A DNA stretch of 34,331 nucleotides from a virus. The DNA lies in IMG/VR virus record IMGVR_UViG_3300021952_000022, positions 1 through 34,331 of that record. One strand, written 5' to 3'. A program made the position numbers and the translations under genes. Below are positions 12,387-32,674 of the stretch, piece after piece (position 1 is the first letter of the stretch; each line of letters begins with the position of its first letter). The notes under the pieces are model-generated. The model saw nothing but the letters and a program-made list of their open reading frames with translations, had not been told where the DNA came from and searched no databases.

Positions 12387-14075
12387 TTAAGCAGCCTTGA
12401 TTCCTGAAACTGCGCCTGACCATTGAGGAGCGTAGTTCACGAATGTTCCACGCCAGTAAGTAGACTGGTCGTAGGATTGCTGAATTACTGGCCAATTTAG
12501 GGCCATATAATCTTGAACATTGACAACTGCCCAGATGTTTGAAACTTCTGAGTTTTCGAATGGCAATGTGTAGGACAAGATAGGTGCTACACCCTGTGGG
12601 AGATAAGGGTGAACAGTAAGATCAACCAACTTGCCTGTGATTTCGTTATGGATTGCTCCGATAACTGCGCCACCGACATAATCGCCTGATTCAGATTGTG
12701 TGAGGTTCAAACGGTAGTTAGCAGTTGAACCATTCTTGATTGCGTCAGATAGTTGCTTACGATCTGCACCATTGAGGAATACCTCATCTGGATCAGCAAG
12801 AACATTCTGGTACATAGCCGCGAAAGCGGTCTGGAACTCAACACCTGGGTTAGATGTAGAGAATGTTGTGTTGATGTTGTTGTTGTAACCTGAGTTAGCA
12901 CCAAGAACATAAGACAAGATTCCATCGTAACCGTTTGAGTAAGCAGATGTATCAGCAGCGTAGTTAGATGCAACATCGCCAGCAACCGCAAGTGTTCCCT
13001 GGAGGGTAATTGTTGTTGTAGCAGATGATCCGTTGAAGAACTTTGCTGAGTCAGCAGGTTCAGATGCAGCAGCACCAGCGAACACCTTGTAACCAAGAGC
13101 GCCTGATACTGGAGCAGAAATCTTCACATCAATAACCTGTGTTGATCCGTCTGGAGTTGCTGAAGCAACTGAAGATACTACTGATGATCCGAAGTCTCCA
13201 GCAGATGAAACTGCCTTAACCCAAACCTTTGTAGCAGCAGAGATAGGTGTTTCACCGTTTGCTGCGGTACGAGCAGTAGCGGTGATTGTTGGAGCAGCAA
13301 GAGCGCCAGAGAATCCGTTAGCAGATGTTCCGCGACCCATAAGCAACATACGCTCTTCAGCCATCATTGATGAGAAGAGGAGAGATGTTGTTGAGAGTTG
13401 GCGAAGATCCTGGTAGCCCTGTGCAGAGAAGTTAGCATCAAATGATACTGAATCTGACAAGCCGAATGATGCGTAGTTGAAAATTGCATCTTCAGCAGCG
13501 TAAGAGATCTTTGAACCACGATTTAGGTATAGAGCGTTGCTTGATCCGTTAGGAGCAAAGTTGTTCTGAGTTGTTTCAGACATACCTGGGTGGATCTTTG
13601 GAAGTCCACCAGTAGCAGCGTTAGAGTAACCCTTAATACGCTTGATACGGTGAGCGTTACCAATTCCCTTTGTACGAGGGAGTTTGTTACGAAGTGGTGT
13701 TGGCTTTGGAACGAGCAACTTTGCAGGTGCTTCGAGGTCGAAAGCAGCAAATCCACCGTTAGCAAGTGCGAATGGTGTGTTAAGGCTAATATCCTTAACA
13801 ATGTCTGCTGATGCAGAACGCTGGGCAGCGAGAGCAGAGTTCAATCCTGCAACTGCATCAGGTGTAAGTGACTTGTTAGCGGCAAGAGCCTCTAGCGCAC
13901 CTACTGGGTTTTCAGAACCGAATTGAACAGGCATACCTGACTCAGCGCGGGCCTTTACAGATGGGTCGAATGTTGCGTTTGCTACTGACTTGTTAAGTTC
14001 GCCGAGGTATTCGTCAAACTTTGCAGCAGCCTTCTTTGGTGATGAATCACCAAATAGATCTTTTGCGTTTGGCAT
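12387..14075 (-). CDS. Major capsid protein with Ig-like insertion
   Basis: The 562-residue protein directly follows protease-scaffold, as in HK97-like heads. The N-terminal ~110 residues look like a helical scaffold-like or leader region. The HK97-type core would span about 120-255 and 370-562. Between about 257 and 370 sits an inserted Ig/fibronectin-like domain, with PTITATARTAANGE, KVWVKAVSSAG and LGYKVFAGAA, ending in a TITLQGTL strand. Insertions like this in capsid proteins usually project from the shell surface. AAGGA lies six bases before the ATG. Confidence 0.85.
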   Translation of the reverse strand: MPNAKDLFGDSSPKKAAAKFDEYLGELNKSVANATFDPSVKARAESGMPVQFGSENPVGALEALAANKSLTPDAVAGLNSALAAQRSASADIVKDISLNTPFALANGGFAAFDLEAPAKLLVPKPTPLRNKLPRTKGIGNAHRIKRIKGYSNAATGGLPKIHPGMSETTQNNFAPNGSSNALYLNRGSKISYAAEDAIFNYASFGLSDSVSFDANFSAQGYQDLRQLSTTSLLFSSMMAEERMLLMGRGTSANGFSGALAAPTITATARTAANGETPISAATKVWVKAVSSAGDFGSSVVSSVASATPDGSTQVIDVKISAPVSGALGYKVFAGAAASEPADSAKFFNGSSATTTITLQGTLAVAGDVASNYAADTSAYSNGYDGILSYVLGANSGYNNNINTTFSTSNPGVEFQTAFAAMYQNVLADPDEVFLNGADRKQLSDAIKNGSTANYRLNLTQSESGDYVGGAVIGAIHNEITGKLVDLTVHPYLPQGVAPILSYTLPFENSEVSNIWAVVNVQDYMALNWPVIQQSYDQSTYWRGTFVNYAPQWSGAVSGIKAA

Positions 14076-14923
14076 TAGTTATCCTTTTCAGAGATGTTGG
14101 CTTGTGATGCTTTATTGATTAAATCGTTAGCGCGATCACGGTAGCCTTTTGCTAGGAATGGGTCGGTGACCGTTTCAGCCATTGCGCGTAAGCGAGCGGC
14201 TCTCATTAGATCATCGTTTGGTGTTACTGGTGCTTGTGCTGCTCCCGTACGCTTTGGCCCAGTTGCGGGCAAAGACTTTACGATAGCCAACTCCTCTTCA
14301 AGTTTTGTTGCTTTCTCAACTACTGACTCTTTTTCAGATCGTAGAGATTCAACCTCGGCCTTGATTGGGGCAAGCGCCTTTTCGATCAATGATGCAATAT
14401 CATCGGCTACTAGGGCTTTCTCCTCAGCGAGAACCTCAACGGGCTCTACTGGGGAAACTTCTTCATCAGCCTTAACTTCCTGGGCTGGGGTTTCTTCAAC
14501 TGCTGGCGCTTCAACTGCTGGCTCATCTACATCAGCAGACTTAACCTCAGTAGCGGATACATTTCCGCACTTGCACATTTTGGCATCGCAGCCCTTTTCT
14601 TCAGCGCAATCAGCACAATCACATTCGCAGCCATCGCCCTTAACGGTCTCTGGTTCTGCTGCTAGGTCAATGCTGGAAAGTTCTGGGGCTGAAACTTCGC
14701 CCTCTTCAACTTCACCCTCATACCAGTTGCGAAGGTGCTTTAGGGCATCAAGAAGATGCTCGATTGAGTCGCGCTCGCTATTGTCTGCTGAAATTTCTCC
14801 AGCCTCAACAACGATGAGATCAGCAATAGCCTTGATCGCAGTATCAAATAGGTTCTTATCGAATTTAACGGTATCGGGTGTCAAAGACTTAGCCAATTCC
14901 GTAATTTGCTTAATTGTTTCCAT
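14075..14923 (-). CDS. Nested scaffold protein from an internal start (putative)
   Basis: Inside the protease-scaffold gene, ATG 14923 (Met185, METIKQITELAKSL) is preceded by GAAAGGG about seven bases upstream. Starting here would give a 282-residue protein containing only the scaffold part, as with Nu3 inside the lambda C gene. The protease domain ends about 30 residues before this point. Direct proof is lacking; it is inferred from the ribosome site and domain boundary. Confidence 0.4.
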   Translation of the reverse strand: METIKQITELAKSLTPDTVKFDKNLFDTAIKAIADLIVVEAGEISADNSERDSIEHLLDALKHLRNWYEGEVEEGEVSAPELSSIDLAAEPETVKGDGCECDCADCAEEKGCDAKMCKCGNVSATEVKSADVDEPAVEAPAVEETPAQEVKADEEVSPVEPVEVLAEEKALVADDIASLIEKALAPIKAEVESLRSEKESVVEKATKLEEELAIVKSLPATGPKRTGAAQAPVTPNDDLMRAARLRAMAETVTDPFLAKGYRDRANDLINKASQANISEKDN

Positions 14924-15475
14924 CTTTGACCCTTTCTCGGTCTTTGTATTCTTAAACAACTCGGTAGGGAGAGGGGCCTTGTATTCGTGCCATTCCTCAG
15001 CCTTAACAAGTGTTGATTCGCCTTCTACGCTCTTTGCCATAATTAACTTTGCGTTAGGATTGGCTGGGCGATCTACTAGCGAAACTTCTACAATCTGACC
15101 ATCAATAATGCGGCCGTTAGCGGCCTTTTGGTCACGAACTACGCGAGGTGCGCGGATACCTATTGAGAATCCTTTAAGAACTCCCGCCTCGACTTTTTTA
15201 ACGCTAGTAGGATCAACAACAAGAACAGAGATGTAATGGCCATCGGCTTTAGTTTCAAGTTCTTTCGCTACTCCTGCCGCAATATTAGAATGTTGTTCAC
15301 GGATATTGCCACCCGTCTTGAACCAATCAGGCATAGCCTTATTTAGCCAGCCAGCATCGCAAATTTGATTATCGGAATCAATAGCATCATCTGTGGCCTT
15401 ACCATAAACGGTAAGTGTTCCATCTTCGTTTTTATCGGCCTTGATAATGGCCGCATAAGAGGTAGTAAAATCCAT
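14075..15475 (-). CDS. Prohead protease fused to scaffold
   Basis: Residues 1-155 are a HK97-family prohead protease. They show YGKATDDAIDSDNQ, a His in REQHSN (His62), a Ser in LKGFSIGI (Ser104) and VEVSLVDRPANPNA (129-142). The remainder is acidic, Glu/Ala-rich and ends in a coiled coil (about 365-410), as expected for scaffold. A Cys-rich stretch near residues 280-310 (GCECDCADCAEEKGC) is odd for a scaffold. The protease should clear scaffold and trim the capsid N terminus during maturation. An internal start for scaffold alone is likely (14923). Confidence 0.85.
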   Translation of the reverse strand: MDFTTSYAAIIKADKNEDGTLTVYGKATDDAIDSDNQICDAGWLNKAMPDWFKTGGNIREQHSNIAAGVAKELETKADGHYISVLVVDPTSVKKVEAGVLKGFSIGIRAPRVVRDQKAANGRIIDGQIVEVSLVDRPANPNAKLIMAKSVEGESTLVKAEEWHEYKAPLPTELFKNTKTEKGSKMETIKQITELAKSLTPDTVKFDKNLFDTAIKAIADLIVVEAGEISADNSERDSIEHLLDALKHLRNWYEGEVEEGEVSAPELSSIDLAAEPETVKGDGCECDCADCAEEKGCDAKMCKCGNVSATEVKSADVDEPAVEAPAVEETPAQEVKADEEVSPVEPVEVLAEEKALVADDIASLIEKALAPIKAEVESLRSEKESVVEKATKLEEELAIVKSLPATGPKRTGAAQAPVTPNDDLMRAARLRAMAETVTDPFLAKGYRDRANDLINKASQANISEKDN

Positions 15476-21152: not shown

Positions 21153-22504
21153 TGATCTCCTTGAAGGTTAGCGTGACATTTGAAACATACGCTCGCCGAT
21201 TTAATGTTAGGCAATCCGCAACTAGGGCAGATTTTAGCGCGAGCATTTAATGAGGTTTGAGCGATAGAGCCTTCAGCGAGTTCTGTTAAAGCCCACACTA
21301 GAGCATCTACGCGATCGGGAGATTTGGCTGAGATGCCTGGCTCCCATTCACACATCTGATCCTCTAACTCAGAGAAATATCCGACATGGTGAACGCGCCC
21401 TTGCTCATAGAGTGCGCTAATAGGTTCGGCACGAACCGCCTTACCCCGTGATGCAGTTACCTTTTTAACGGGTATGTTTGGTCGAACCGAATTCATAAGA
21501 TGCAAAACTAAATCCCCGCCGTTATTTGTTTCGGCGATTATTCGTGATGCTTTGTGGGTCTCATAAGCCTGAACTGCTTTAAGAGCCCATTCCTGGGGAG
21601 ATGCTTTCGTTGTATCGTCTGAAAGCACATAAAATTGATTATCTGCGGTAACTCCAGCAGTTACGATACCTGTTAAGTCCGAATCCTCGCCAGATGTAAC
21701 CGCTGGATCTATACCGACAACAACGCGAATAAGTTGAGGGGGCTCAGTAACTCTGGCTGATTCAATCAGAGAACGAGTCCAGAGAGCGCCAGGATTATCA
21801 TCCAGGATCTCGCCATAAAGTTCTTGACGGCCTAAACGAGTGCCAGCGTATCGGGCTTGCATTTCGATCAGAGCGGATTCTGAAAGGTTCTCCGAGTTAT
21901 CGAAAGTAGATCCGCGAGTAACTACCGTTGATTCACGCTTAACTAGATCTTTAATGATCTTAGTAGGGCGCGGGGTAGTGGTAATAACGGTTTGAGGATG
22001 ATCGCCTAAGCGCAATCCGAATTGCAGTTGATTCCAGGTATCTTCATAAGGCCAGGCGGCTAGTTCATCAGTCCAGGCAAAGTGGAACTGGGGGCCACGC
22101 AAAGAATCTGGGGTATCGCTAGAAAAGGTCTGAATGATCGAGCCATTTTTAAGCGTAATAATTCCGTTAGATTTGTTCCAATCTTTTACGGCATCGTACT
22201 CACGCAATACATTGAGAATACCTGAGACACCCTCTACGCATACGGCGCGAGTATCGGCAAAGGTACGGGCTACGATGGCACATCGAACGCCATCATTGCG
22301 AACTGCTTTAGCGGCTAGCCATTCAGCGCCTAAGCGGGTTTTACCAAATCCACGCCCAGCCATAATAAGCCAGGATCGCCAATCACCTTCAGGCGGTAGT
22401 TGATTCGGCCTCGCTAGGCCCTTCAGCGGATGATGCCACTTCAGGTAACGCAACGCGGCTAGATCGGGATTCAAGTTCTGCACTAAGTCTGGTGATTGCT
22501 TCAT
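21125..22504 (-). CDS. terL: Terminase large subunit with C-terminal zinc ribbon
   Basis: The 459-residue packaging motor has a Walker A AGRGFGKT (49-56), a Walker B with Asp146-Glu147 in HFAWTDELAAW, and a coupling motif TTTPRP (175-180). Nuclease acidic residues are Asp266 (VGIDPAVT), Glu325 (IIAETNNGG) and Asp397/Asp400 (SPDRVDALVWAL). A zinc ribbon is appended at the end with Cys426-x2-Cys429 and Cys440-x2-Cys443, which most large terminases lack. The first 38 codons overlap the small terminase gene. The RPNQLPPEGDW stretch before Walker A is needed, so the overlap is real. Confidence 0.93.
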   Translation of the reverse strand: MKQSPDLVQNLNPDLAALRYLKWHHPLKGLARPNQLPPEGDWRSWLIMAGRGFGKTRLGAEWLAAKAVRNDGVRCAIVARTFADTRAVCVEGVSGILNVLREYDAVKDWNKSNGIITLKNGSIIQTFSSDTPDSLRGPQFHFAWTDELAAWPYEDTWNQLQFGLRLGDHPQTVITTTPRPTKIIKDLVKRESTVVTRGSTFDNSENLSESALIEMQARYAGTRLGRQELYGEILDDNPGALWTRSLIESARVTEPPQLIRVVVGIDPAVTSGEDSDLTGIVTAGVTADNQFYVLSDDTTKASPQEWALKAVQAYETHKASRIIAETNNGGDLVLHLMNSVRPNIPVKKVTASRGKAVRAEPISALYEQGRVHHVGYFSELEDQMCEWEPGISAKSPDRVDALVWALTELAEGSIAQTSLNARAKICPSCGLPNIKSASVCFKCHANLQGDQWPLNTTQS

Positions 22505-22874
22505 CTACTGTTTCGCCGCCTCCGACTACGGCAGTACGAGAGGTCGCATTGCCTTCCAACAATTCTGTTTTATCAATCAAGATGCCCAGGGTTACTGCGG
22601 CCTCTCTTGCCTTCAGATCTTCCACGATTCCGTCTAGGTGGCGTAGAACTTTGTTGCGAAGGGTTTTTAATTCTGTAATGAAACCATCTCTAGTTTCGGG
22701 AAGTACCTCTGCGGTGGCTAATGCCATATCGCTTTTAAGGTCACTATTATCCGCGACCCAGGCTCGTAGGGTTGCTTGCCCTATGCCCAGTTGGAGAGAT
22801 GTGCGCTTAATATTGCCTTCGTTAGCCTCTAAGGTTACTAAAGCCTCGGCGCGTTGTTTCTCTGTATAAGCCAT
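22389..22874 (-). CDS. terS: Terminase small subunit
   Basis: The 161-residue protein begins with a helix-turn-helix typical of small terminases (YTEKQRAEALVTLEANEGN, then LGIGQATLRAWV). A long helical stretch (TELKTLRNKVLRHLDGIVED) suitable for ring formation follows, and then a Ser/Glu-rich tail. It lies directly before the large subunit and overlaps it by 116 bases. It should recognise the packaging site on the phage DNA. Confidence 0.8.
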   Translation of the reverse strand: MAYTEKQRAEALVTLEANEGNIKRTSLQLGIGQATLRAWVADNSDLKSDMALATAEVLPETRDGFITELKTLRNKVLRHLDGIVEDLKAREAAVTLGILIDKTELLEGNATSRTAVVGGGETVDEAITRLSAELESRSSRVALPEVASSAEGPSEAESTTA

Positions 22875-23904: not shown

Positions 23905-24068
23905 TTTTTGCGCTTGTCTCGCTTTGCTTTGTAGGCTTCGACTTCTTCGCGGTTATAAAATACGCGCTTAGATTCTTTCTTTACCCACTTGATTTGCCCG
24001 CGATACTGGATCTGGTGAAGGTTGTTAAAGTTCACACCCAGGAATTCGCACACTTCGTTAGTTGTCAT
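23901..24068 (-). CDS. Small helix-turn-helix protein
   Basis: The 55-residue protein starts at ATG 24068, overlapping the SSB stop as TAATG. It begins TTNEVCEFLGVNFNNLHQI, then FYNREEVEAYKAKRDKRKK. That is a MerR/excisionase-type helix-turn-helix with a basic tail. It could be a small regulator or DNA-bending protein. It is one of two such proteins in this block. Confidence 0.65.
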   Translation of the reverse strand: MTTNEVCEFLGVNFNNLHQIQYRGQIKWVKKESKRVFYNREEVEAYKAKRDKRKK

Positions 24069-24457
24069 TAGTTCCATGAAGAATCCCAGCCCGTATCTTC
24101 CTGAGCGGCCTTTGGCTTAGGCTTAGATGCGCTGATAGGTAAAGTAATATCATCAGCCTTAATCTCTAATCCCTGCTTTTGCGAGCCATCCTTTGCGGTG
24201 TATTCGGTAACTTTGAAAGCACCTGAAACCTTTACGCGTTGCCCTTTGGAAATAGAATCAACGATCATTTCTGCCTTACGCCCCAAAACGGAAACTTTGT
24301 ACCAAACTGTTACGCCGTCTACCCATTCACCGTTTTTGTTTTCGCTTTGTGAGTCTGCTACTGAAAATTCAGTAACGGCAAAATCACCATTCTTTCCTTT
24401 AATAAATTTAATTTCAGGATCTTTACCTAATACACCTGTGATCTCAATACGCGCCAT
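24068..24457 (-). CDS. ssb: Single-stranded DNA-binding protein
   Basis: The 129-residue protein starts at ATG 24457 (MARIEITGVLGKDPEIKF); a GTG at 24484 would add nine residues. It has the OB-fold pattern FAVTEFSVADSQSE, WYKVSVLGRKAEMI, then KGQRVKVSGAFKVTEY and LEIKADDITL. A flexible Lys/Pro linker and an acidic end (EDTGWDSSWN) follow. The tail lacks the classic DDIPF tip. It protects ssDNA during replication and recombination and overlaps the HNH gene by 14 bases. Confidence 0.85.
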   Translation of the reverse strand: MARIEITGVLGKDPEIKFIKGKNGDFAVTEFSVADSQSENKNGEWVDGVTVWYKVSVLGRKAEMIVDSISKGQRVKVSGAFKVTEYTAKDGSQKQGLEIKADDITLPISASKPKPKAAQEDTGWDSSWN

Positions 24458-24782
24458 TCCTGTTATCCAATCTTTCGTAGTCACCTTCGGGAGTTAATCT
24501 TACTATCTCTACACCGTGAAGATGTAAAGGGTATTCGGCTGGATCGGCCCAACTGGGAACCATCCAACCTTTCACCGTAGCCTTTTTGGGGTTTAGGTGA
24601 ATACTATCTGTGCCTAAGTTATGGCATTTATGATGCACCGCTATTAAATTTATTACCTCATCTTTGCCCCCGCGAGATTTTAACTTTCGGTGATGTAATG
24701 CGAAATCATCACCTGGAAGGCCACACGCTTCACAATATCCTTTAGCGCGATCCAATACGGTTTCGGCTATGCGCTTATCCAT
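24444..24782 (-). CDS. HNH endonuclease
   Basis: The 112-residue protein has Cys17-x2-Cys20, a His-His pair at 30-31 (ALHHRKLKSRGGKDEV), then NLIAVHHKCHNLG. That is the ordered HNH core with zinc ligands. The C-terminal half is basic and then beta-rich. Small HNH proteins of this kind can assist packaging or act as free endonucleases. Here it lies between the proteasome-like hydrolase and SSB, not next to terminase, so a DNA-processing role is more likely than cos cutting. Confidence 0.85.
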   Translation of the reverse strand: MDKRIAETVLDRAKGYCEACGLPGDDFALHHRKLKSRGGKDEVINLIAVHHKCHNLGTDSIHLNPKKATVKGWMVPSWADPAEYPLHLHGVEIVRLTPEGDYERLDNRNGAY

Positions 24783-25311
24783 GTTTCGTTTGTTCCAGAA
24801 ATATAAATGGGCCAGATGTGTAAGGATCTTTATTCGCGGCTACTTGTAACGCTTCTTCAATGCTCGAACCTGCGTGTAATGCTCCCACCGCAAGAGAAGA
24901 ACCAGAGCCGATACCGTAATAACCATCCTCATCAAGACAAACGGCAAGATCATCACTAATATCAAATACCTCACCACCAACTGCAATAAGGAAAGCAAAC
25001 TTTGTTTCATCATCTTCCTTTACATCCCACTTATAATCGTTGTCTTTGAAACATTGTTTGAGCGATGGAATAACTTTTGCAATCATAAAATGATAAAGAT
25101 CTTTTTTATCTGCGGCCGTTGGTGCGGGCGGTTTCCAAATATGCTGGGCCACATCACACGCCGCAACCTCTCCAGCGCCAGCAATGAGATACTGACCGCG
25201 TTCAGTAATCTTTGCCATCTTAGGATGCGAATATTTGCGAGTTGCAGTTACCTGGCTATCTGCGCCGATTATTACACGATCCTCAAATTGAATGGCTGCT
25301 ATTGTGGTCAT
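24775..25311 (-). CDS. HslV/proteasome beta-like Ntn hydrolase
   Basis: The 178-residue protein begins MTTIAAIQFEDRVIIGADSQ. After Met removal the catalytic residues fall at Thr1, Asp17 and Lys33 (KMAK), exactly the HslV and proteasome beta-subunit positions. A GIGSGSSLAVGAL motif (133-145) and IEEALQVAANKDPYTSGPF complete the Ntn fold. It starts at ATG 25311 with AAGG seven bases upstream, right after a terminator. No HslU-type ATPase is seen in the window. It could be a free peptidase, a host-ATPase partner, or a proteasome modifier. Confidence 0.8.
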   Translation of the reverse strand: MTTIAAIQFEDRVIIGADSQVTATRKYSHPKMAKITERGQYLIAGAGEVAACDVAQHIWKPPAPTAADKKDLYHFMIAKVIPSLKQCFKDNDYKWDVKEDDETKFAFLIAVGGEVFDISDDLAVCLDEDGYYGIGSGSSLAVGALHAGSSIEEALQVAANKDPYTSGPFIFLEQTKHG

Positions 25312-25328
25312 GGCGTAACCTTACTATA

Positions 25329-25368
25329 AAAACAAAAAACCCCCAGCGTTTTTATTACGGTTGGGGGT
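25329..25368 (-). terminator. Rho-independent terminator upstream of the Ntn hydrolase gene
   Basis: ACCCCCAGC (25339-25347) pairs with GGTTGGGGGT-type sequence (25360-25368), giving nine base pairs with one G-U. On the minus strand the stem is followed by TTTTTTGTTTTT, a strong U tract. It would stop leftward transcripts from the early block about 20 bases before the hydrolase gene. Confidence 0.8.
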
Positions 25369-25459
25369 AAGTTGTTTTCGAACCAAGATAGCACTCTAGG
25401 GCTCGGAAGTGGACAAGAAGTCCTATTCAGTTTTTCTGCCAATTTAGCATTAGGGCAAT

Positions 25460-25477
25460 TATAGTAAATTAACTATA
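25460..25477. promoter_or_regulatory. Operator candidate, copy 1
   Basis: TATAGTAAATTAACTATA is a near-palindrome differing from the second copy at one base. A TATAAT hexamer on the minus strand (25463-25458) overlaps its edge, so a bound protein could block a promoter. The binding protein is unknown. Confidence 0.5.
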
Positions 25478-25505
25478 TATTGCGCCGCGACACGCTCAAA
25501 AGACA

Positions 25506-25535
25506 ACTGCCCCACCGATTTCTCGATAGGGCAGT
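25506..25535 (-). terminator. Terminator-like hairpin
   Basis: ACTGCCC (25506-25512) pairs with GGGCAGT (25529-25535), with a further CGA/TCG pairing inside. On the minus strand it is followed by TGTCTTTTGAG, a weak U tract. It lies between the two operator candidates. Confidence 0.5.
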
Positions 25536-25560: not shown

Positions 25561-25584
25561 AAATATAGTTAATTAACTATATTT
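25561..25584. promoter_or_regulatory. Operator candidate, copy 2 (24-bp perfect palindrome)
   Basis: The 24 bases are perfectly palindromic, each half being AAATATAGTTAA. The inner 18 bases (25564-25581) match copy 1 at 17 positions. The two sites are 104 bp apart, close to ten helical turns, so they face the same side of the DNA. A weak minus-strand promoter (TTAATT, 17 bases, TATACT) overlaps it. Confidence 0.6.
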
Positions 25585-25703: not shown

Positions 25704-25704
25704 G

Positions 25705-25776
25705 CTGGCCATCCTGGATTCGAACCAGGAACATTTCGATTAACAGTCGAATACTCTGCCGTTGAGTTAATGGCCA
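25705..25776 (-). tRNA. tRNA-Asn (GTT)
   Basis: On the minus strand, acceptor arms TGGCCAT and ATGGCCA pair over seven bases. The anticodon arm is TTCGA-CTGTTAA-TCGAA with anticodon GTT, and the T arm is CCTGG-TTCGAAT-CCAGG. The discriminator base is G and CCA is not encoded. Phage tRNAs often offset codon bias or replace host tRNAs cut by defence nucleases; which applies here is unknown. Confidence 0.92.
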
Positions 25777-31417: not shown

Positions 31418-31683
31418 TACTTACCTTCCAGAAATCTAATAGTGTTGTTGAAAATTGATTCCACCCATTCGGCAAATGATGATTTGCTTTTACCGAAAAC
31501 CCAGCGATCTCTTTCCTCAGCAAGAGTTACTGCTAGTTCGCTCTTAATGCGCTTTTCAATTCCCGCCTCATAATCCCTGGCTCGAACAATAAGAGCGATG
31601 TGATCGCACTCATAAGCGGATAAGCAGCGATCATTATGCAAATCCTCAAATGCCTGGATTGCCTCTTCAATAATAGTTTTCAC
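31417..31683 (-). CDS. Small helical hypothetical protein
   Basis: The 88-residue protein is mostly helical (IIEEAIQAFEDLHNDR, RIKSELAVTLAEERDRW) and ends SFAEWVESIFNNTIRFLEGK. The start is GTG 31683, overlapping the whiB stop as GTGA. No family is recognised. It lies between WhiB and the replication protein. Confidence 0.55.
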   Translation of the reverse strand: MKTIIEEAIQAFEDLHNDRCLSAYECDHIALIVRARDYEAGIEKRIKSELAVTLAEERDRWVFGKSKSSFAEWVESIFNNTIRFLEGK

Positions 31684-32012
31684 ATTAACCTTCTCTCGAC
31701 ATTGGAAGCCTCTAGTACCTCTTCAAATGTTATCCCGAACTCTTCCAAATCCCGCTTTAGTGGCTCTAAGAAACGCGAGTTTAATTTGTCATTTACGATT
31801 TCATTGCGTTCTGCTGACGATACCCCGCCCCACATTCCAAAACGCTCATTGGCAAAACCTACCTCTAGGCATTGCTGACGAATCGGACAAGCAAAACATA
31901 CGCGGCGCATTTGGCGATGGCTTAAATATTTATTCTTCAAAAACTCTTCTTCAAGGTAAAAGAATTCCGTACTTAATCCGCTGCAATTTGATCGTGACCA
32001 ATCAACCTTCAT
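31680..32012 (-). CDS. whiB: WhiB-like iron-sulfur transcription factor
   Basis: From ATG 32012 the product is 110 residues; an ATG at 32033 would add seven. Four cysteines are placed as in WhiB proteins: one near the start (SNCSG), then CFACPIRQQC with C-x2-C-x5-C spacing. They are followed by the GMWGG turn and SSAERNEI. WhiB proteins are confined to actinobacteria and their phages and act with the host sigma factor. It may redirect host transcription, possibly at the phage promoters with the shared element. Confidence 0.85.
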   Translation of the reverse strand: MKVDWSRSNCSGLSTEFFYLEEEFLKNKYLSHRQMRRVCFACPIRQQCLEVGFANERFGMWGGVSSAERNEIVNDKLNSRFLEPLKRDLEEFGITFEEVLEASNVERRLM

Positions 32013-32017
32013 GCGAT

Positions 32018-32674
32018 CTATTTTCCTGAGCATCCAGCAAACCCACTTTCATCGTAGTAAGAGCAATATTCGGCGCAAAAGAATCGAGCCGATCTTTCTG
32101 GCGGTGGTGGGGTGTCCATAGCCTTTACTTCAGCAACCCAGGAGCGGGCCTCTTCAACAAGAGCGAGATTGTAATCATCTTCCCAGCAGACAATATCCGA
32201 CATTTTGCCATCTCTAGGAATGAAAACTAATCCCACGCGCTTTACTGGGTAATGCTGCGAAATCAAACTTGCATAAATATTTACTTGCATTTTCTGTTGT
32301 TTAGTCGGTAAGCCGCCTTTAGCGATCTTTGCCATAGTAACTGTTTTCCAGTCATAAACGGTTTCAGATTTGCGTGAATAGAAATCGCAATGACCCTTGA
32401 AGTATTCATCGCTAAAACCTTCCTCTAATATGAAATCATCGGCAAATACATCGTAAGCCTTCAATGCTTCATAAATGGTGGTGTGCATGGCCGATCCAAT
32501 TATGGCGCTGAGTTTTTCTGTATCGTGATTTGTTTTAGGAGTTTGGTTCAAGATGTGCCACGCCTGGGTTCTGCATCCACCTACTGAACTGGCTCCCAAT
32601 TCAACTTGTAGAGAACGATCTTTTTGGCCGTCTGCTTGATTAAGAGCAGTAGTAAGAGTTTTTATAATATCCAT
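32018..32674 (-). CDS. Cas4/RecB-like 4Fe-4S exonuclease
   Basis: The 218-residue protein has a PD-(D/E)xK nuclease core: His64 (GSAMHTTIYEAL), Asp97 (GHCDFYS), Asp108-x-Lys110 (YDWKTVTM) and Gln130-x3-Tyr134. Four cysteines (Cys34, Cys200, Cys204, Cys215) are placed as in Cas4/AddB iron-sulfur clusters. No CRISPR array is near. It most likely works with the annealing protein and SSB in phage recombination. Confidence 0.8.
   Translation of the reverse strand: MDIIKTLTTALNQADGQKDRSLQVELGASSVGGCRTQAWHILNQTPKTNHDTEKLSAIIGSAMHTTIYEALKAYDVFADDFILEEGFSDEYFKGHCDFYSRKSETVYDWKTVTMAKIAKGGLPTKQQKMQVNIYASLISQHYPVKRVGLVFIPRDGKMSDIVCWEDDYNLALVEEARSWVAEVKAMDTPPPPERSARFFCAEYCSYYDESGFAGCSGK

Follow-up and report, generated by a model that had tools for sequence, protein, structure and literature searches.

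The described systems with which the peptidase reported here can be compared are BPH, HslV of the HslUV system, and the AAH/PPH group I homologs. BPH, which according to its description (PMC5777263) is inert on standard peptides and casein and apparently lacks an unfoldase, has an elongated acidic pore loop as its hallmark. Table 1 of the survey by Fuchs, Alva and Lupas 2021 (PMC8665760) leaves the Actinobacteria blank for HslV, and the same survey reports that no Actinobacteria-specific phages encoding AAH were found. An HslV without HslU has already been noted in a Salmonella jumbo phage (PMC7823757). Our literature search retrieved neither a functional study of a phage proteasome homolog nor an activity measurement for any phage member.

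We analyzed a virus record of 34,331 bases at its full length (hereafter, the window), in which an earlier note had pointed to a gene for an HslV/proteasome-like peptidase with an intact catalytic triad. The open reading frame is borne out, and its strand, which the first reading did not give, is the minus strand, with the ATG at 25311 and the N-terminus MTTIAAIQF. The gene and the codons of the predicted active site are the following:

24775..25311, minus strand: coding sequence (178 aa) of a proteasome-like (HslV/BPH-type) N-terminal threonine peptidase, from profiles, conservation and model
25306..25308, minus strand: codon of the predicted nucleophile Thr1, residue 2 when Met is counted; all 146 distinct relatives have T
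25258..25260, minus strand: codon of Asp17, residue 18 when Met is counted; D in all 146
25210..25212, minus strand: codon of Lys33 (residue 34 with Met); K in 145 of 146

The Pfam search gave only two matches for the peptidase, a weak one to PUA_2 and one to PF00227 (Proteasome) at 24.7 bits for a cut-off of 22.4. In the PHROG search the protein matched phrog_1040, annotated 'peptidase HslV family' (E=3.5e-30), and the closest solved structure by profile was BPH (E 6.2e-13). The peptidase is thus a member of the proteasome/HslV family, with the Ntn fold of the proteasome beta type. Narrower identities were tried and rejected: HslV proper (NCBIfam equivalog TIGR03692, 23.1 bits vs a cut-off of 157.75), the bacterial 20S beta subunit PrcB (TIGR03690, 17.2 bits vs 191.9), the S78 prohead protease (no PF04586 match), and PPH, which is about 140 aa long and lacks helix H2, residues 72-90 in our model of the 178-aa protein. 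The family named by the earlier note therefore holds, while HslV in the strict sense does not, BPH being the nearest solved structure.

After removal of the start Met, Thr1, Asp17 and Lys33 fall in the proteasome/HslV register, and the SGS motif is present within GSGS at residues 135-138, with a glycine at the oxyanion position, as had been claimed. Conservation was assessed in 146 distinct relatives from IMG/VR contigs and named phages, the locus searches having returned the best 80 per search and 8 of 248 loci having been dropped because they held no usable protein. The oxyanion glycine is kept in 142 of these relatives, and in the single Lys33 exception (L154) a lysine is present beside a loop indel. 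Relatives without Thr1 or Lys33, the outcome held to speak against the assignment, were looked for and not found. A 78-sequence alignment, reaching down to 25% identity with the window protein, retained only 10 invariant columns, among them M1, T2, D18 and K34, that is, the start, Thr1, Asp17 and Lys33. Over 375 close pairs dN/dS had a median of 0.10 and a maximum of 0.26; by this measure the gene is under strong purifying selection. The peptidase is probably active. In five relatives (L010, L016, L020, L021 and L086) the codon before that of Thr1 is ATC or ATA instead of ATG or GTG, which would point to unusual starts or else to a short extension at the N-terminus.

An AlphaFold model built on the 78-sequence alignment (pLDDT 92.5, pTM 0.90) displays the Ntn fold, so that the structure prediction proposed as a check did not return the refuting result of a different fold. 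Foldseek placed the model close to BPH (E 2.1e-10), and VIA gave Z scores of 18.4 for BPH, 17-18 for HslV (best 18.0) and 16-17 for proteasome subunits. Regarding the pore, the loop that follows H2 carries a net charge of -3 in the window protein and of -3.1 on average over the 78 members, vs +2 in E. coli HslV. The GSG motif is separated from the 'Asp166' position by 26 residues, vs 35 in E. coli HslV, and the stretch between H3 and H4 is about 9 residues shorter than in HslV and, by alignment, than in BPH. The helices of this stretch make the main inter-ring contacts in HslV and the proteasome, according to PMC8665760. Because the ring-joining stretch is shortened, the usual double ring, built of six-membered rings in HslV and of seven-membered ones in BPH, may be altered or absent.

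The host is indicated by a regulator gene elsewhere in the window:

31680..32033, minus strand: WhiB-like regulator gene, an actinobacterial host marker (PF02467, 6.7e-13)

Of 20 related phage records, 15 contain WhiB, as does one of 14 control genomes, that one being an actinobacterium. On this marker the hosts are actinobacteria, and the window comes from a virus that infects freshwater members of the phylum. Among named phages, the closest relative is in Planktophila phage LanE43-AprE7 (OX376640, 7500-8033; 41% identity over 99%), and a near copy of its peptidase lies in OX376641, presumably the sister phage F5. LanE43-AprE7 was isolated on a cultured Ca. Planktophila strain, and the same source mentions host-protein degradation genes (PMC10202952). 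Two scans of genome contigs returned no encoded relative.

The earlier note had seen no ATPase partner in the window, and the AAA_2, AAA and hslU models indeed found no match there. Beyond the window, HslU (TIGR00390) was absent from all 20 related phage records, some of which are fragments, while the same model matched in 14 of 14 control genomes, in 5 of them over the cut-off; AAA_2 was absent from 17 of 17 phage records. The general AAA model (PF00004) matched neither the window nor any of its 10 closest long relatives, and its matches in 8 of the 20 records all lie outside this group. Four of these eight were read by eye: the two of Planktophila type resemble ATPases of replication/RecA type, that of DSL-LC01 resembles the MoxR type, and that of Pumpernickel fits no type. 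The extended search for ATPases thus came out empty for HslU, and for AAA proteins in the close relatives only. Since many phage records are fragments, the missing ATPase is not proof of independence. Of the three options put forward at first (a stand-alone peptidase, hijack of a host unfoldase, or interference with the host proteasome), the first is favored. Hijack of a host HslU is unlikely, HslV being blank for Actinobacteria in the table cited above (PMC8665760, Table 1).

The genes that bear on the function of the peptidase in the window are:

24444..24782, minus strand: HNH endonuclease gene, overlapping the peptidase gene by 8 bp in the same operon (PF01844, 2.3e-7; phrog_740)
24068..24484, minus strand: gene for a single-strand DNA-binding protein, following in the operon (PF00436, 2e-17)
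22389..22874, minus strand: 161-aa gene directly before TerL, putative small terminase with the same -10 box (place and sequence by eye; no PHROG match)
14075..15475, minus strand: weak S78-like prohead-protease/scaffold candidate of the window phage (PF04586, E 0.0065, below cut-off; phrog_80, 7.3e-7)

Two gene orders dominate among the relatives, counted after removal of overlapping loci of one contig (138 to 101; 197 kept in the larger set). In 77 of the 196 listed loci with an upstream gene, the portal gene lies directly upstream, mostly by 13-17 nt (Planktophila type); in 59 of the 196 it is a transglycosylase-like family, as in the window. LanE43-AprE7 shows the order TerL, two small genes, portal, peptidase, an 84-aa gene, phrog_8200, a 1764-aa gene, two more genes, a scaffold-like gene and the major head protein. 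Starting from the portal gene, the peptidase was found within 120 nt in 60 of 70 evaluable listed loci, and in one more behind an inserted endonuclease-like gene (by eye); the other 9 hold a small gene in the slot instead. Ten of the 80 loci of this search were set aside for too little sequence, and 5 of those still matched. Starting from the TerL of the window, the peptidase lies upstream in 22 of 22 evaluable loci; 14 of 36 loci were left out because too little DNA lay upstream, including L360, whose 3.3 kb upstream hold no such gene. The peptidase gene is therefore near-core in two lineages of different gene order and linked in both to packaging and head genes. Four loci (L349-L352) carry a far more divergent peptidase at the same place upstream of TerL (profile E about 1e-40 vs 1e-87), as if the slot kept its function while the gene was exchanged.

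Other neighbors are confined to few lineages. They include a GroES gene (PF00166, 3.6e-27, L129:7690-7977) that follows the peptidase gene and overlaps it by 10 bp in 9 of 194 listed loci, a histone-deacetylase-like gene (PF00850, 6.3e-58, L092:9080-9976) directly upstream in 8 of 196 and in one phage lineage, a metallophosphoesterase-like neighbor, recognized by eye, in 10 of 196, and a Mom-like gene. An 84-89-aa gene that comes next in 58 listed loci was considered as a partner and rejected: it has no family match, and in two further loci the two genes are not adjacent. The relatives in phAPEC8, D'Alembert, Tunturi_5 and Pumpernickel sit among other genes.

The earlier note had also placed the gene behind a strong terminator and a twin-operator region and held that it was likely regulated apart from the rest. 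The upstream elements are:

25318..25323, minus strand: -10 box TAAGGT, at -12 to -7 from the ATG (putative leaderless-type promoter); TANNNT in 25 of 36 upstream regions
25328..25368, minus strand: intrinsic-terminator-like hairpin with T-run that immediately precedes the -10 box (stretch at -29.6 kcal/mol, z -4.15)
25457..25478, no strand assigned: operator-like dyad repeat, copy 1 (repeat search)
25506..25535, minus strand: terminator-like hairpin between the two dyads (terminator scan, folding)
25561..25582, no strand assigned: operator-like dyad repeat, copy 2, whose inner 20 bases form a perfect palindrome (repeat search)

Both elements are thus found. A simple terminator scan listed the hairpin at 25535-25506 and not that at 25368-25328. 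The twin 22-nt dyads are 91% alike, with two matches vs 0.00 expected. On the minus strand, each dyad copy is followed by a terminator-like hairpin, at 25535-25506 and 25368-25339, and two short transcripts could arise between the tRNA-Asn gene and the peptidase gene. The tRNA-Asn(GTT) itself lies at 25704-25776, in DNA that partly resembles Microbacterium phage tRNA genes and stretches of cyanobacterial phages.

TANNNT is the actinobacterial -10 consensus, and leaderless transcripts are frequent in that phylum. Of the 36 distinct regions upstream of the gene in window-type loci, 25 carry it at -12 to -7 and three more one base further out, and its frequency at other offsets in these regions is 2.9%; a ribosome-binding core occurs in 3 of the 36. 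At -12 to -7 it precedes none of the downstream HNH genes (0/44) and SSB genes (0/46), and no Planktophila-type locus has the box (0/34). Among other ORFs of at least 80 aa it was found before 12 of 558, the putative small-terminase gene accounting for 5 of the 12, and in a wider set of that gene it occurs in 13 plus 2 of 21 distinct upstream regions. In the window, the box of the putative small-terminase gene is TAAGAT at 22887-22882, one base further out, and the motif TATAGTAAGRT occurs exactly twice, before this gene and the peptidase gene (0.02 expected). In part of the relatives the -10 box is also readable as a weak ribosome-binding site (AAGG), but the conserved part fits a -10 box better, because two of the boxes, TAATCT and TAACCT, are unlike ribosome-binding sites. 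We infer that the transcript is leaderless and belongs to the timing class of the packaging operon. Because this box lies between the terminator and the ATG, the terminator would insulate the peptidase gene and not silence it. Separate regulation is thereby supported in a refined form, with a promoter-like box common to the putative small-terminase gene.

We propose, with a probability of roughly 0.55, that the protein is an unfoldase-independent threonine peptidase made with the packaging and head genes; in this proposal the catalysis, the oligomeric ring, the late timing and the substrates are all inferred. Removal of the start Met by methionine aminopeptidase is established for proteins that begin with Met-Thr. 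The host enzyme would thus expose Thr1, which Lys33 and Asp17 would activate, and short or unfolded polypeptides would reach the site via the acidic loop after H2, as in BPH. The gene would have a leaderless-type promoter to itself, one that falls into a class with the promoter of the putative small-terminase gene, and from this common class it follows that the peptidase would be made when packaging and head genes are made; the late timing is suggested by this motif and by the place of the gene. Its most likely task would be to trim or clear polypeptides in the packaging and head phase; candidate substrates are virion proteins that have misfolded, by-products of assembly, or a single specific target in phage or host.

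A related but unlikely reading is that the enzyme serves virion morphogenesis itself, as a protease made with the terminase and head genes that cleaves scaffold, portal-associated or internal virion proteins in place of an S78/ClpP-type prohead protease, maturing or clearing head-assembly proteins without an ATPase. If true, this would be a use of the proteasome fold undescribed in the literature found. Its place downstream of the portal gene in Planktophila-type phages (77 of 196 listed loci), usually at a distance of 13-17 nt and ahead of the scaffold-like and major head genes, would suit such a role, as would the box common to the putative small-terminase gene in window-type phages and the GroES gene with its 10-bp overlap in 9 of 194 listed loci, GroES being used by some phages for capsid folding. 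Likewise, no S78 match was obtained in three Planktophila-type records (W07, G011 and G012), but weak S78-like matches, below cut-off, occur in the window phage and six other IMG/VR relatives. Heads evidently form without the peptidase, since 9 of 70 portal loci lack its gene, and in phages of E. coli, Psychrobacter, Microbacterium and Tunturiibacter the gene does not adjoin the head genes.

Similarly doubtful is a host-takeover or counter-defense protease that cuts one specific host protein. The specialized substrate spectrum proposed for BPH in PMC5777263 is compatible with such a role, and the accessory-type neighbors are lineage-dependent (histone-deacetylase-like 8 and metallophosphoesterase-like 10 of 196 listed loci). 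However, the near-universal presence of the gene within lineages (22 of 22; 61 of 70) and its terminase-type box speak for a routine function in the phage. Models of defense systems gave no match, which says little on counter-defense.

It is improbable that the protein docks on a host unfoldase (Mpa/ARC, ClpX or ClpC) or joins or changes the host 20S proteasome. Many actinobacteria have a 20S proteasome, and the beta-type fold of the model is near the mycobacterial proteasome chains 3hfa and 3mka (Z 16.4-16.5), but the NCBIfam match to the bacterial 20S beta subunit reaches only 17 of 191.9 bits. Mpa docks on proteasome alpha subunits, and as a search of the window gave no further gene of the proteasome family, no alpha subunit would be provided for it. 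The blank for HslV in Actinobacteria also stands against a host machine (PMC8665760, Table 1). Finally, a specific ligase or acyl-transferring enzyme is very improbable: connectase, a monomeric ligase, belongs to the same family (PMC8665760) and the shortened H3-H4 stretch may disfavor double rings, but connectase lacks H1-H2 and has a two-helix insertion at S3/S4, whereas in the model both H1 and H2 are present and the insertion is absent.

The unfoldase-independent peptidase that we prefer would be of interest beyond this window. In a large group of actinophages its gene is nearly always present, is under strong selection and is tied by place and by a promoter-like box to packaging and head genes. 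As a relative is carried by a phage isolated on cultured Planktophila, the timing, the substrate and the need for an unfoldase are directly testable, and a compact stand-alone enzyme of proteasome type could serve as a model for motor-free peptidases.

At E up to 0.1, relatives were also obtained in 24 plasmid records, from Rhizobium, Sinorhizobium, Mesorhizobium, Streptomyces, Paraburkholderia and Bacillus; two of these are short partial matches under genes annotated peptidase S14. On the S. fredii GR64 plasmid (L251:6001-6546) the relative lies between rpoN/nifQ and iron-sulfur/nifS genes; other rhizobial plasmids carry a protein of this kind as well. The six plasmid relatives placed in the tree form one clade (100/99) apart from the window group; the tree holds 44 rows, about a third of relative set A2 plus named references, and its deep branch placement is unsure because several long branches meet. 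By distribution only, the rhizobial and Streptomyces plasmid relatives fit AAH, and the actinophages described here carry a form that is related but branches separately.

Compared with known systems, the window protein is most like that of LanE43-AprE7, a phage that also bears WhiB: both belong to the same subfamily and have the same length, triad and short H3-H4 stretch, but the LanE43-AprE7 gene is part of the head operon, downstream of the portal gene and without a TANNNT box, whereas a terminator and a leaderless-type box of its own precede the window gene. The phrog_1040 protein of the E. coli phage phAPEC8 belongs to the same PHROG, with 27% identity and without much of the H1-H2 stretch (15 vs 24 residues). 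BPH (5ovs, 5ovt and 5ovu) is closest in profile and fold and has the acidic loop after H2 and a Thr1 exposed by Met removal; it differs in its identity of about 20% and in the longer H3-H4 stretch. HslV of HslUV has the same fold and triad (Z 17-18), but the window protein scores below the HslV cut-off, has no hslU beside it, is acidic where the pore region of HslV is basic, and has 26 vs 35 H3-H4 residues. With the AAH/PPH group I homologs it has in common a compact beta-type form without propeptide, occurrence in phages and no AAA+ partner, while PPH is shorter (about 140 aa without H2 vs 178 aa with H2), according to PMC8665760. This kind of protein is already known (Fuchs et al. 2021, PMC8665760), and the peptidase described here is a distinct actinophage variant of it; new are the actinobacterial hosts, the 41% relative in the isolated phage LanE43-AprE7, the leaderless-type box common almost only to the putative small-terminase gene, and the post-portal place in 61 of 70 loci of Planktophila-type phages.
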